Positions 17,922 through 64,000 of a stretch of 64,000 bases of DNA are shown piece after piece. Every line of letters starts with the position of its first letter. Position 1 is the stretch's first letter. Made by a program: the position numbers and the translations under genes. The stretch is from an uncultured bacterium. Its GTDB lineage: Bacteria; Cyanobacteriota; Vampirovibrionia; Gastranaerophilales; Gastranaerophilaceae. Under the pieces are notes generated by a model that saw nothing but the letters and a program-made list of their open reading frames with translations, was not told where the DNA came from and searched no databases. The stretch spans positions 1 to 64,000 of the forward strand of contig CASEDF010000005.1 in assembly GCA_949286705.1 (NCBI GenBank), written 5' to 3'.

Positions 17922-17935
17922 GGAGGAATAATCAA

Positions 17936-18990
17936 ATGAAAAATAGGGTATGCATAAATCTCGGGGGGGGGCGACTCTCCTAGGTATACAGGAAAAGGGT
18001 TTTGACGGTATTGGTTGTGTAAAGTTACTAAGATACTATGGCACTAAGGCACTAAGAAGTAACAGAAAAGTAGGTTGGCATTACCAGACCGACAACGAAA
18101 TTGGCAAAGAAGCAAATGCAAATTATAATTCAGAAAACAAAACCGTGAGCGAAGCTCACAGAAAACACACCCCTCACTCTACTCACGTTAAACAAGAGAT
18201 CCTGAAACGAGTTCAGGATGACAAAAAAACTCACTTCACTCACGTTAAAAAAGCCGCCTTCACGTTAGCCGAGGGTGCTACGCACGTAGACATGTCAGAC
18301 AACATTCATCGTGTCGCGTTTACTCTGGCTGAGGTTTTGATAACCCTCGGTATAATCGGTATTGTAGCAGCAATGACTATCCCTGCGTTAGTTCAAAATT
18401 ATAGGGAAAAAGCCGATGTAATCAGGCTTAAAAAAGCCGTATCTGCTTTGGAGCAGGCAAAACTTATGGCGATAAATGACGGTTTATTTTTAAAACTTAC
18501 GTATCTTCAGGCCGGTGGTGTGTATATTCAAGAAGAACATGAAAAATTCGCAAATTATTTTAAACCATATTTTAAGGTGGCGATTGACTGCGCGCTTCCC
18601 GATGTTTCAAATACGGCATGTATTGGAGATTATGATAATGCTAAAATTTACAAAATTGATAAATTTTCGCAGGCTACAAGCTTAGCACAAAATACGTTTC
18701 GTGGATTTATTACAAATGATGGTATATCTTACTTTTTTTATGCAATGAATGGAACCATTCTAATTGATTTAAATACTCCAAAAAACGGTCCTAATGCATA
18801 TGGACATGACATCTTTAAATTTAATATTGATTCGACCGGAAGATTAGTTGTCTATGGTAATATCGAAACTTTGGAAGAATGTAAGATAACTGGCAGTACT
18901 TGTTCAAATTGGGTAATGAAATATGGTAATAAAGCTTATATTAATTGTCCTGATAAGGTTGAGTACGGGGGTAACATAGCATGTCGTTGA
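17936..18990 (+). CDS. Prepilin-like protein with repeat-rich leader, start out of frame (locus B)
   Basis: The C-terminal part is a prepilin: MSDNIHRVA, then FTLAEVLITLGIIGIVAA and a 220-residue domain with Cys near the end. The ATG at 17936 has AGGAGG eight bases upstream, but the nine G at 17963-17971 put it out of frame, giving a stop after 15 codons. With ten G the reading frame runs through a 128-codon leader into the pilin. The leader includes short palindromic repeats and a first KKAAFTLAE box (18259) 20 codons before the real one (18319). Internal starts at 17950 or 18292 could give pilin without slippage, but neither has a clear ribosome-binding site. Probably co-transcribed with GH13. 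Confidence 0.8.
17963..17971. repeat. G9 homopolymer tract in locus B
   Basis: CTC, nine G, then CGACTCTCC. Same flanks as the tract at 29765 and, inverted, at 128. A tenth G would join the ATG at 17936 to the prepilin frame. Confidence 0.95.
18021..18065. repeat. ACTAAG-rich repeat unit in prepilin leader
   Basis: AAAGTTACTAAG..ACTATGGCACTAAGGCACTAAGAAGTAACAG (shown in part) is nearly identical at 29823-29867, and occurs in the opposite orientation relative to the gene at 38321-38353. Contains GTTACT near its start and AGTAAC near its end, a short terminal inverted repeat. Confidence 0.85.
18145..18223. repeat. Two palindromic REP-like units inside the locus B leader
   Basis: GTGAGCGAAGCTCAC (18145-18159) and, at 18196-18223, GATCCTGAAACGAGTTCAGG plus ATGAC, which translates as EILKRVQDD. 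Related units lie in locus D at 38359-38373 and 38441-38467, where they read SEAHS and EMLKQVQHD. Confidence 0.8.
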
Positions 18991-29737: not shown

Positions 29738-30786
29738 ATGAGAAATACGAAAAAAGAGAAACTCGGGGGGGGGCGACTCCTCCAGGTAGAAATAGCAAGG
29801 TTTTAGGCGGTATTGTTTGGGAAAAGTTACTAAGTTACTATGGCACTAAGGCACTAAGAAGTAACAGCAATGTAAGTCGGCATTACCAAGCCGACAGAAA
29901 AATTTACACCCCTCACTTCACTCACGCTATTCACGTTAAAAAAGCCGCCTTCACGTTAGCCGAGTGTGCTACGCACGTAGACATGTCAGATAACATTCGT
30001 CGTGTCGCGTTTACTTTGGCTGAAGTCCTTATAACCCTTGGTATAATCGGGATTGTGGCTGCGATGACGATACCGACAATTTCACATAACATTCAGCAGG
30101 CAGTATTAAAAAATCAATTCAAGAAATTTTACAGCACTTTCTGGCAGGCAGTAATCGGGATACAAACAAAAGAGGGCAGACCTGTACAGTGTTATTATTG
30201 GGATGGCACAAATCCATATACGGGCAAATGCACCCCGACATGTGATGAAGATGAAAAAAATCAATACGGTAACTGTACTGTATATAGGTGTGCGGAAACA
30301 GGAGAACCCATTCCGACGGATATAAACGGTCTAAGCTCAGAGTGCAGTGATTTTTACGAAGAATTGTTTTTAAGAACATTGAAAACAACAAAAATATGCA
30401 AAGATAAGGCATATGAACAGGGCTGCCTGCCGAAAGACTTTAGAGGTGCGGATGTTGTAAAATCAGAACAAAATCCGGATAAAGAATATGACCCTGCAGG
30501 AATTTTTGCTGATTCCCCTGTGAAAAATAAATATCCTGTATTTGTTTTAGCTGACGGAACATATATTGTATGTTATAGTACTCGTTATTTAGCGGGTTTG
30601 CCTATTTTTGTTGCGGACATAAATGGTGCTAAAGGTCCAAACAAATGGGGTTATGATATATTTACCTTTGGTTTTTCAGGGAATAGAAATGCAGGTATAG
30701 CTTCAATTATCCAACGCCCCTTCAATTATGCAACTGAAAAAGGCGGGAAAACCTTTCAACAGATGTATGAAGAATGTTTTAAATAG
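29738..30786 (+). CDS. Prepilin-like protein with repeat-rich leader, start out of frame (locus C)
   Basis: The prepilin part starts MSDNIRRVA (29983), then FTLAEVLITLGIIGIVAA and a domain with four to six Cys (CYYWDG, CTPTCDEDEKNQYGNC). The ATG at 29738 has a promoter and AAGGAG, but the nine G at 29765-29773 put it out of frame, and translation would stop after about 22 codons. With ten G the frame is open for a 91-codon leader into the pilin, passing a first VKKAAFTLAE box (29950) exactly 20 codons before the true one (30010), as in locus B. An internal start at 29983 would give a good short leader but has no clear ribosome-binding site. Ends 8 bases into rsmD. Confidence 0.82.
29765..29773. 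repeat. G9 homopolymer tract in locus C
   Basis: CTC, nine G, CGACTCCTCC. Same flanks as locus B. Ten G would bring the upstream ATG into the prepilin frame. Confidence 0.95.
29823..29867. repeat. ACTAAG-rich repeat unit, second copy
   Basis: Nearly identical to 18021-18065; both lie at the same distance after the G tract, so the leaders of loci B and C derive from a common ancestor or by copying. Confidence 0.85.
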
Positions 30787-37405: not shown

Positions 37406-38648
37406 CTAGCGGCAAGAATGTTTGCCGTTCCACGATAAATCATCACAATCCCAGTAATCCATATTGCCGTTATAAATTACCCATGCTGTACATGTTATAT
37501 TAATTCCCGTATAAGTTTTATTCAGACAGGCATTCTCAAAAGATGAACCAGTATATGTTCTGTTGGGCATGCCTTGCGGTAAAATCCCATCACGATATAT
37601 ATCAAATTTAAATACGTCTTTTCCGATTTGATTTGGTGAAGCGCTTCCGTTTAAATCTACTGTAACGGTTCCGCAATTTCTAAAATACAATTCGCGTTCT
37701 TCAGTGGAATTTTTATATGCTTGACACCATACTTCTGCAGCGTTGTCTCCGTTCGACCCTAAAAATTTTATTGAGGTACCATTATTGAGTATAAAAGTTT
37801 TTTTCATTCTTCCCGGATGATCCAGATAAGATTTATCCAGTTTGTAGTAGTCTTTACCCCAGCAGGCTGTATATATTTTTTCATCATTGCTTGCTTCACA
37901 TGTTCTTAAAATTTTAAGAAATTGAGGCATAATTTTATTGTATATCGGTTCTATATCGTATCTATTATTTGCTCCCCAAAAATTAATCGGTCCATATTCC
38001 TTAATCGCCATATCAAATGCACTGTTCAGGATACTGTAGGTGTTTTTTAATTTTGTTACGAATACTTTTTCTCGATAATTCGCAACCAGCGTCGGAATAG
38101 TCATGGCGGCAACAATGCCGATTATGCCGAGGGTTATTAAAACCTCAGCGAGGGTAAACGCAGCACGACGAATATTGTCAAACATGTCTACGTGTCTTGG
38201 ATTGTGCACAGCTCGCAAAAGCGTGGTTTTGCTCGCAGGGACGAACTCGCTGCGCTCCGTTCTTGTGCAAATCCGCTGCGTAGCACCTTCCGCCAGAGTA
38301 AACGCGACTTTTTTAGAAGATACTAAGTTACTAAGGCAGTAAGGCACTAAGAATTTACTGTGAGCTTCGCTCACGGTTTTGTCACAGTCTTGCCCCTCTC
38401 CCTTAATCCCTCTCCCCTGGGGGCGAGGGGAGGTATTTTTGTCATGCTGAACTTGTTTCAGCATCTCATTAACTTTTTGCGATCCTTCGGCTAACGCCTC
38501 AGGATGACCTGTAAAATTCCAAAAAGCCCTAGAATGTTGTTGTGCCTTTGGCACCTCAGGATGACCTGAAAAAGAGTAGTGTTCGGAGGTTAAGCTACTG
38601 CCCCCCCCCCCTGGCTGAAAAGTAGTTGTGATAAGTGTTTGCGTCCAT
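37406..38648 (-). CDS. Prepilin-like protein with repeat-rich leader, start out of frame (locus D)
   Basis: The prepilin part (DNIRRAA, FTLAEVLITLGIIGIVAA, then a 230-residue domain with several Cys and a closing GKHSC) lies at 37406-38180. The ATG at 38648 has GGAGG six bases upstream and a promoter, but eleven G (coding strand; 38601-38611) put it out of frame; translation would stop after 17 codons. With ten G the frame runs 163 codons to the pilin. Between tract and pilin lie REP-like palindromes, ACTAAG repeats, a first VAFTLAE box (38302) and an 84-base insertion (38195-38278), all open in frame. The GTG at 38554 or the internal Met before DNIRR are alternative starts. Confidence 0.8.
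38195..38278. repeat. 84-base in-frame palindromic insertion in locus D leader
   Basis: In loci B and C the sequence runs GCTACGCA directly into CGTAGACATG; in locus D the same flanks are separated by 84 extra bases (28 codons, frame kept). The insert contains the palindrome GAACGGAGCGCAGCGAGTTC and TTGCACAA near one end with TTGTGCACA near the other (strands differ). Confidence 0.75.
38321..38353. repeat. ACTAAG-rich repeat, inverted copy
   Basis: TACTAAGTTACTAAGGCAGT and AAGGCACTAAGAA on the plus strand, whereas the prepilin is on the minus strand, so the unit is inverted compared with loci B and C. Confidence 0.75.
38359..38467. repeat. Cluster of three palindromic REP-like units
   Basis: GTGAGCTTCGCTCAC (38359-38373), CCCTCTCCCCTGGGGGCGAG with GGGA (about 38408-38432), and GTCATGCTGAACTTGTTTCA with GCATCTC (38441-38467). 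The first and third also occur in locus B; the second is similar to the stem at 52459-52479. All lie inside the open leader of the locus D prepilin. Confidence 0.8.
38601..38611. repeat. C11/G11 homopolymer tract in locus D
   Basis: Eleven C on the plus strand. Flanks differ from the other three tracts (TACTG before, TGGCT after). Loss of one base, to ten, joins the ATG at 38648 with the prepilin frame. Confidence 0.95.
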
Positions 38649-61750: not shown

Positions 61751-61778
61751 AAAAAACGGGCATTAAGCCCGTTTTTTT
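61751..61778. terminator. Bidirectional terminator
   Basis: AAAAAACGGGC-ATTAA-GCCCGTTTTTTT between convergent genes; serves the signalling operon and the large gene to the right. Confidence 0.93.
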
Positions 61779-64000
61779 ATTTTACTGCATATCCGTATAA
61801 AGCAGCTCTGCGTTTTTTAATTTTTTTGATTAAGGATTTGCCTTTTTTCATATTTGATAAATGAAGAACGTTTCTGGCAGCTTCTTGTTCGGGTTGTTCA
61901 TTCAGGCTTTTGATTGCGGAATAAGCTTGTAAGCCCTGGCTTCCTACTTCAAGTGCGGTACTGCCAATGTTCATCGCTTTTTCCATTCTTTCTTGTCTTT
62001 CAAATTTACGTTGTGCATCAGTTTTTCCGCGTTCCGGCTGAATAATTTCACCATTGTCAGCGGTAAGTGCTCTTTGTTCTTCCTCATCAAGTAATTCATT
62101 GAGATTATTTTCAGGTTCTTCAAGTTTTTCTATTTTTTCATTTTCGGAACCCTCATCAGCCAAAATAGTTTCTTGCGGATCTTGAGAAGCAGCAGCTTCA
62201 ATTTCTTCTTTTGTTTCCGGTTTAATAATGTCACCGTTGTCAGCAGTAAGGACTCTTTGCACTTCTTCATCAAGTTTTTCATCAAGATTATTTTCAGGTT
62301 TTTCAAGTTTTTCTAAAACTTCATTTCTTGGATTCTGATTGTTAGAAGCGGGGTTCTGAGAATCTTTAGAATCTGTTTCATCAACCTTATCTAAATTGGA
62401 TTTATCATCTGAATTTTTCTTATCATTTTTGCCTTTTTTTATGTTGCCTTTTTCATCAACGATGCTGTTTTCATCTTTTTGACCTGAGCTAGCATAACCG
62501 CTGATTAAATTAGTTAACGAACCTGCTATTGATAATGAACTTCCGACTAAGCTTAAAACTGCTTCGGCTTTACCGGAGGCTTTGCCTTGAGTTTGTTTTA
62601 TTAAAGAACTGATTTGTGAAGCAGAGGTTACAGTCGTACCAACAGCAGATGCTACCTGACCTATTTTTTGACCTATATTGCTGCCCTGCATTCCTCCTGC
62701 AATACCGCCTGCAGCGCCTGTAGTTGATGATACGATACCGGCTATAGAATTGATTGTATTCAAATTCTTGCTTGATTGTTTACCATTAAGTGTATTGGTA
62801 TTTGAAATCATTTGTGTCGTTGAACCAACAAGGTTTGCGGCACTTGAAGTTGCTTGTAAACCTGTGCTTATAGCTTGACCGGCAGTCATACTTGCTGTTT
62901 GTGCAACTTGTCCTGCAGCTTGTGCACCTGCTTGAGCTGCTTGAGCTGCTGCTTGACCGGCTTGAACACCGGCCTGTGCTACTTGAGTACCTGTTTGAGC
63001 TGCTTGACCTGCTGCTTCTGCTGCGGCACCGCCTGCCGGGATAAATGACATTGCTGCGCTTGCTATACTTGTACCCAAAGTCATCCAAGCTTCTTTACTT
63101 AGACCGTTTTCAAACATAACAGCTGCTTTTGCAATGCCGCAGGCAAGTTGACCGGCAATTAGTACTATGTCCAATGCTGATAATTGAACTTTTGCTACGC
63201 CGTCTGTTATTTCCAGAGCGGTAGTCAAAGGTACAAATACGATTTGACCGATAATCGGGATACCTGATAAGCCTGCTGTAACTTTACCTGTTATAAATAA
63301 TATTTTTTCAACTAATTTGAGAATGGTAAGTACAGTTTGGACTATTGTTAAAACATTAGAAACTACGCCTATTACAGCTAATGATTTTTGCATTTTGGCT
63401 TGCTTTTCTTTTTCTTTTTTCTGAGCAGCCTTTTGCATTTTTATTCTTTGTTTTGTTATTTTTTCATATTTTCTGTGATTTTTATTGGAAGATTGGAAAA
63501 GTTTTGTTATAGATAATTTATTATCATTTATACGTGCTGTCAAAACATTAAATCTGCCTGAAATAGCAGTCATTCTTTCTTGATTTGCAGTGACTAAAGC
63601 AATATCACTTTGAGTTTCTGTTCCGTTGCCTGCAGAAGATGTCAACAGACCGCCGCCTTGCTGACCGTTATTTTGTCCTGCTGCCATGCCTCCGCCTGAT
63701 TGCTGGCTTGCTAATATACGTGAATTTGCTTCTTCTGTTTGTGCATTTAAGGCTTCAAATTCTGCTGCCAATGTGTTTTGTTCTTGCATTGCCTCTTCGG
63801 AATCTTTTGTTAATTCTTCTATTTCTTTTTGGTCTTTATTAATTTGTTTGACAACTTTTTTAGATTCCTTTTCTAAATCTTTTTCTTCTTTTTTGGCATC
63901 TTTTGTTACTTTTTCAGAATCTTTGCTTGCTTCTTCTGCTTCTTCAGTTGCCTCATTAGACTGTTCTTCACCTTTTTCACCTTCTTTTTGGGTTTCTTTT
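61777..64000 (-). CDS. Very large Ala/Gln-rich membrane-associated protein, partial at right edge
   Basis: The frame is open from the right edge to 61777; the Met at 63789 is internal, since the upstream 70 codons (Glu/Lys/Ser-rich, EEAEEASKDSEKVTKDAKKE) also read through. Order: charged coiled coil; Gly/Gln/Asn-rich linker; basic helix; hydrophobic block (near 130-235 from Met 63789: VIGVVSNVLTIVQTVLTILK, FITGKVTAGLSGIPIIGQIV); Ala/Gln-rich repeats (QAAQTGTQVAQAG and so on); Ser/Gly-rich hydrophobic part; charged tail with two copies of an acidic repeat (QRVLTADNGDIIKPE and QRALTADNGEIIQPE). No signal peptide seen since the start is outside. It has the look of pore-forming translocator or effector proteins, but no family is recognised. 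Confidence 0.78.
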   Translation of the reverse strand, partial: KETQKEGEKGEEQSNEATEEAEEASKDSEKVTKDAKKEEKDLEKESKKVVKQINKDQKEIEELTKDSEEAMQEQNTLAAEFEALNAQTEEANSRILASQQSGGGMAAGQNNGQQGGGLLTSSAGNGTETQSDIALVTANQERMTAISGRFNVLTARINDNKLSITKLFQSSNKNHRKYEKITKQRIKMQKAAQKKEKEKQAKMQKSLAVIGVVSNVLTIVQTVLTILKLVEKILFITGKVTAGLSGIPIIGQIVFVPLTTALEITDGVAKVQLSALDIVLIAGQLACGIAKAAVMFENGLSKEAWMTLGTSIASAAMSFIPAGGAAAEAAGQAAQTGTQVAQAGVQAGQAAAQAAQAGAQAAGQVAQTASMTAGQAISTGLQATSSAANLVGSTTQMISNTNTLNGKQSSKNLNTINSIAGIVSSTTGAAGGIAGGMQGSNIGQKIGQVASAVGTTVTSASQISSLIKQTQGKASGKAEAVLSLVGSSLSIAGSLTNLISGYASSGQKDENSIVDEKGNIKKGKNDKKNSDDKSNLDKVDETDSKDSQNPASNNQNPRNEVLEKLEKPENNLDEKLDEEVQRVLTADNGDIIKPETKEEIEAAASQDPQETILADEGSENEKIEKLEEPENNLNELLDEEEQRALTADNGEIIQPERGKTDAQRKFERQERMEKAMNIGSTALEVGSQGLQAYSAIKSLNEQPEQEAARNVLHLSNMKKGKSLIKKIKKRRAALYGYAVK

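Follow-up and report, generated by a model that had tools for sequence, protein, structure and literature searches.

Locus B lies on the forward strand of a stretch of 64,000 nucleotides, hereafter called the window. Its Shine-Dalgarno (SD) sequence, recognized in the sequence as GGAGG (17922–17926), adjoins the stop codon of an amylase-like gene located upstream. The start codon opens a 5' stub of nine codons (MKNRVCINL, 17936–17962) that leads to a tract of nine G (G9, 17963–17971). The ATG is thus exactly 27 nt ahead of the tract, and most loci of the genome are spaced alike. As assembled, the locus is OFF; one more G puts the ATG in the pilin frame. The OFF-frame product, of 15 aa (MKNRVCINLGGGRLS), is closed by a TAG at 17981–17983, and most G9 loci have a stop equally far beyond their tract. 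With ten G, the ATG at 17936 reaches the pilin in 128 codons, the F of FTLAE being at 18319. The post-tract leader (17972–18318) has 115 codons; its joined frame is free of stops, and the other two have 9 and 7. It contains an array of ACTAAG repeats corresponding to element E1 in one orientation and read as LRYYGTKALRSN (18022–18063), as well as palindromes, which an earlier note on this DNA had described as REP-like: GTGAGCGAAGCTCAC, within a unit read as VSEAH (18137–18165; an inverted copy of this unit is found at 38354–38382), and a REP palindrome read as EILKRVQDD (18199–18219). The cleavage motif also has an upstream copy, AFTLAE (18256–18273), seen in the sequence and followed by GATHVDMSDNIHRV. 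The pilin body, counted from the predicted first mature residue, has 223 aa (18319–18990). It carries the class III motif FTLAEVLITLGIIGIVAAM and scores 15.3 bits with PF07963, under the Pfam cut-off.

In locus C, also on the forward strand, the start codon and 5' stub (29738–29764, ATG at 29738) precede a G9 tract (29765–29773) that is OFF as assembled. The leader (29774–30009) has 78 codons, without a stop in the joined frame and with 6 stops in each of the other two. The pilin body (30010–30786, 258 aa) is below the Pfam N_methyl cut-off. With ten G, 91 codons separate the ATG from FTLAE. Locus D is on the reverse strand, with a start codon and stub at 38612–38648 (ATG at 38648) and a G11 tract (38601–38611) that is OFF as assembled and would be ON at 10 or 13. 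Its leader (38159–38600) has 147 codons, again stop-free in the joined frame (7 and 14 stops in the others), and contains E1 in the opposite orientation as well as an upstream FTLAE at 38302. The pilin body (37406–38158, 250 aa) has an N_methyl match above the Pfam cut-off, and 163 codons lead from ATG to FTLAE with ten G, 164 with thirteen. The total lengths of 128, 91 and 163 codons that had been proposed for B, C and D with a ten-base tract are therefore correct to the codon, and all three lack stops in the frame that links the ATG to the pilin. With tracts of 9, 9 and 11 in the assembly, the three loci are out of frame, and early stops limit their products to 15, 22 and 17 aa. Locus A represents a second tract class, with a C9 tract on the reverse strand (128–136), an ATG at 176 and the pilin F at 105; its pilin body is truncated by the contig end, at the left end of the window. 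The AFTLAE motif is duplicated within several leaders (18256–18273; 38302 on the minus strand), followed by a GATHVDMS-like sequence, as if a motif-carrying unit had inserted at the motif itself.

The earlier note had expected random sequence of this composition to hit stops, and this is the case. Dinucleotide shuffling leaves the locus B leader stop-free in only 0.12% of cases (0.4% when any one of the frames may be the open one), and base shuffles without any stop amount to 0.08% for B, 0.9% for C and 0.04% for D. Taken alone, such single-locus chance figures, of about 0.04–1%, are suggestive. Genome-wide counts are overwhelming. The 1.85-Mb draft genome contains about 80 FTLAE prepilin genes and one prepilin peptidase gene, and the prepilins show the class III motif, FTLxE with Glu5 and about 20 hydrophobic residues. 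Of these prepilins, 51 are preceded, at no more than 700 nt, by a G-tract of at least 7. Nearly all of these loci have an SD sequence and a start codon ahead of the tract, and the distance to the tract is constant, 27 nt in most cases. The joined frame between tract and pilin is stop-free in 43 of the 51 leaders; summed over 4,744 codons, the stops number 42 in the joined frame, 341 in +1 and 460 in +2. The 42 joined-frame stops sit in eight loci. Two of these, L030 and L064, have a short leader and a start of their own close to the pilin, so that the tract is probably outside their reading frame; the six other tract-linked leaders (L009, L042, L053, L085, L101, and L124) look broken. In the second class, a C-tract of 7–10 has an ATG mostly 37–40 nt upstream. 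Eight such loci were seen in the genome, the C9 ones likewise needing one base more, and C-tract leaders pooled from this and related species have 0, 62, and 95 stops in the three frames over 835 codons. Tractless pilins mostly have a short open leader, several of them with a nearby SD start.

The same organization extends beyond this genome. The succession SD-ATG-G9 is present in 15 of 15 congeners and in many genomes of the same family, mostly in numbers, and is next to absent in other families of the order. Leaders sampled from relatives, mostly congeners, have 15, 397, and 577 stops over 5,482 codons, the 15 joined-frame stops being confined to three loci. In another genus (G018), where the repeats are different, three leaders give 0, 19, and 25 stops. 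In a third one (G024), the tract reads openly into the pilin in 8 of 10 sampled loci, with mostly short leaders. Homologous leaders full of stops, which the earlier note had named as the finding that would speak against its reading, were looked for in the congeners and in another genus, and none were encountered. The frame-wise stop counts, in the genome itself and in its relatives, rule out openness by chance. For the pilin of locus B in particular, no orthologue useful at the DNA level was found in the genus. A scan of named genomes with this pilin returned only two distant relatives, in Candidatus Scatousia and in a Gastranaerophilales genome; one has an 11-G tract (L270) and the other has no tract.

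The repeats themselves do not account for the open frame. A satellite is present in the leaders in both orientations, giving the peptides LRYYDTKAVRRN and LVPYCLSNLVSS, and so is REP, read either as VILNLFQDL or as EILKRVQDD; satellite and REP occur almost only in the open frame. Inside leaders, one single frame is used (E1f, 16/16; E1r, 16/18). Since each element is open in some frames only and yet keeps a fixed frame within leaders, the view that the repeats are merely open by chance is excluded. That they are open in every frame is also ruled out, because the other frames are rich in stops and the copies found elsewhere close: outside leaders, the frame used within leaders mostly closes within about 40 codons. 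Genome-wide, with leader space approximated, leaders hold 38 of the 59 E1 copies and 21 of the 42 REP copies, and the repeats are about 80–150 times denser per base there than elsewhere. The ACTAAG-rich units reported in the leaders are present as an array, which is the leader-specific feature (9 of the 13 hexamers of the window fall in the three leaders); the hexamer as such is not over-represented in the window as a whole (13 occurrences for 22 expected). The proposal that repeats are tolerated in the leaders stands as far as they keep the frame open, not as openness by chance. Three REP copies outside leaders (L261, L263, and L264) lie in long open frames and are perhaps in-frame inserts in other genes.

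These data bear on whether the leaders are translated at all. The pilins could start near FTLAE, in which case the open frame upstream would be incidental, a side effect of repeats that are open by accident. The same genome does contain pilins that have a short leader and an SD start close by, and internal SD-like starts occur in some leaders, 13 in the joined frame and 14 and 3 in the other two, so that internal initiation from those of the joined frame is possible. However, only the joined frame is open, in 43 of 51 leaders and whichever the orientation of the repeats, openness is also found in a genus with different repeats, and copies outside leaders close. An untranslated leader, already unlikely from these observations, has in our opinion very little chance of being the right explanation.

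Selection on the leader sequence was evaluated with nearest-neighbor leader pairs. Leader differences are spread evenly over codon positions (393/407/417), with a dN/dS-like ratio of 1.11. In the pilin bodies, the corresponding figures are 346/146/1226 and 0.08. Only stop-free leaders entered this set, and for this reason the observation of 0 stops, where 29.6 were expected, adds no independent evidence, unlike the genome-wide comparison of the three frames. The 8 codons nearest the cut behave differently from the rest, with 365 synonymous and 192 nonsynonymous single differences, as compared with 46 synonymous and 156 nonsynonymous ones beyond 30 codons from the cut; as leader pairs are not independent, these codon figures are contrasts rather than exact tests. 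Ala occupies position −1 in 78 of 80 cases. Hence, the amino-acid sequence of the leader drifts neutrally save near the predicted cleavage site. Together with the frame-specific absence of stops, this supports a combination of the two readings in the earlier note: the leader behaves as translated, as the first of them has it, but is not selected for its amino-acid sequence. A leader peptide with a conserved function, in targeting, chaperoning, or regulation, might be suspected from the basic character of the leaders (mean net charge, +7.7) and from the constraint on the last 8 codons. Substitutions are nonetheless neutral beyond the cleavage-proximal part, and another genus uses other repeats, so that we give such a function very little credence and, apart from the cleavage-proximal codons, find it unsupported. 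No membrane-like window was found in the joined frame of 75 leaders; 16 and 8 were found in two reverse frames.

The tracts show two properties of a phase-variable gene: a mononucleotide run of 8 or more in the coding start region, the length of which determines, from the sequence, whether the start codon and the body share a frame. Among 42 usable loci of the genome, 30 are G9 and OFF, 7 are G10 and ON, one is G7 and ON, and a few have other lengths, all as draft-assembly consensus in which length errors are possible. Related loci are similar, with a G9 needing +1 in 29 of 41. Because G9 lacking one base predominates, the distribution suggests a default state that would be OFF, one step from ON. 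The tracts of G024 have 11, 12, or 13 bases, 12 being ON, and those of G018 have 11 and need −1; the analysis of these two genomes picks the open frame by construction and is used for the state only. These lengths favor length change over one programmed frameshift.

The predominance of G9 nevertheless has another possible meaning. G9 would not be OFF, and transcriptional slippage or −1 ribosomal frameshifting would let almost all loci produce a little pilin at all times, the DNA remaining unchanged. The identical +1 need of the dominant G9 class (30/42 and 29/41, as above) agrees with this, as does the same need in the C9 class; moreover, G-runs are slippery, and in most loci the zero frame meets a stop 9 nt beyond the tract. 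A single −1 rule would not fit the other lengths, however: G10 is ON, G11 and G13 need −1, and G12 is ON elsewhere. We consider constitutive slippage rather unlikely.

We think it probable that each locus is one phase-variable prepilin gene, in which a long leader is translated and then discarded and the tract sets the ON or OFF state. The architecture, the openness, the neutrality, and the differences in tract length between loci are established directly; from them we infer translation of the leader, reversible switching, and cleavage. Initiation would occur at an ATG with a good SD sequence, about 27 nt before the G-tract or mostly 37–40 nt before the C-tract. Slipped-strand changes in the tract would then decide whether this start joins the pilin frame. 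A length of 9, the common one in this genus, would be OFF and mostly yield a peptide of about 15 aa, and a length of 10 (or 7) would be ON. In the ON state, translation would run through the leader, roughly 10 to 180 codons long, and on into the pilin; the prepilin peptidase would remove this leader ahead of FTLAE. As the leader is discarded, its amino-acid sequence would be nearly free, with only openness under selection. The leader could thereby become a harbor for palindromic and satellite repeats, of which only frame-preserving inserts would survive.

Leader similarity and body similarity are nearly uncorrelated (r = 0.08), and in 197 pairs of loci sharing over half of the leader at 80% identity or more, the body is also shared in only 5. 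Four genomes (G000, G002, G011, and G001) have a tract-leader pilin at the site that follows the amylase-like gene; the bodies in G002 and G011 are 53–55% identical to each other and neither is close to that of G000, and no pilin was seen at this site in G009 and several other genomes. Leaders thus look as though they had been exchanged between pilins with unrelated bodies. Together, the decoupling and the contents of this site indicate that leaders may often be exchanged or bodies often replaced. The repeats might then be kept because they promote recombination between pilin loci, tolerance alone being insufficient to account for their density. The 197 leader-sharing pairs with 5 shared bodies, the little-related pilins of the amylase site (G000 vs. 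G002 and G011) and their absence from G009, and a repeat density of about 80–150 times that elsewhere, for an approximated leader space, agree with this idea. Copying of leaders or low-harm insertion could also produce such a density, and we hold a recombination role, which is compatible with phase variation through a discarded leader, to be possible but doubtful. In a broader and equally tentative form, the leaders would be a platform for both recombination and switching: open but otherwise free coding DNA, cleaved off from the product, whose shared repeats let about 50 default-OFF pilins trade switches and bodies between sites. Were this so, each cell would have a different small set of pili.

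The components of this system are known individually. In the contingency genes of Neisseria and Campylobacter, which encode surface proteins, a tract near the start codon sets the reading frame by its length. A tract near the start would set the frame here too, judging by the sequence, but some 50 pilin loci in a 1.85-Mb genome share a 5' layout and an ON length, and a long repeat leader follows the tract. Similarities with the pilE/pilS system of Neisseria are the many pilins, the shared start, the variable body, and signs of exchange; in contrast, there is no evidence of silent, start-less cassettes, and a start and a switch of its own accompany almost each of the loci. The likeness to type IV prepilins lies in FTLAE with its Glu5 and hydrophobic stretch and in the prepilin peptidase gene. 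Canonical class III prepilin leaders are of 6–26 aa and end in Gly (PMC4471445), whereas those described here have about 10 to 180 codons and mostly end in Ala. Rickettsia palindromic elements are palindromic repeats kept open, in frame, within protein-coding genes; their description is that of inserts about 150 bp long, found in unrelated genes and encoding a conserved peptide (PMC10969869). The leaders also carry in-frame palindromic repeats within genes, and the resemblance noted earlier is a good analogy. It does not amount to membership, because several families, in either orientation, are piled up between a slippery tract and a predicted cleavage site, and because amino-acid substitutions are neutral where the Rickettsia elements have a conserved peptide. 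We found no report of their combination, and searches of the open literature returned no description of this system, which does not prove absence. Coding DNA seemingly selected only to stay open separates “translated” from “functional as sequence,” and makes the fate of selfish repeats within genes directly testable. The loci also suggest a phase-variable repertoire of surface proteins that is very large for the genome size in this gut lineage. Annotators should be aware that gene callers will assign wrong starts to these pilins and list peptides derived from repeats as protein.

Several isolated features may be mentioned. In L140 (C8:53017), a tract leader opens into a pilin body without FTLAEVLITLGIIGIVAAM, as if a deletion had joined repeat to body. 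Tracts of G9–G10 precede non-pilin reading frames in L138 (C6:46597) and L145 (C2:94824); judged by eye, these frames resemble glycosyltransferase or polysaccharide genes and are possibly phase-variable as well. In L139 (C16:19587), G13 and G12 tracts lie on opposite strands, almost back to back. Finally, the window contains at 62032–62326 a directly repeated unit of 112 nt, 83% identical, inside a long minus-strand frame (61777–63789).
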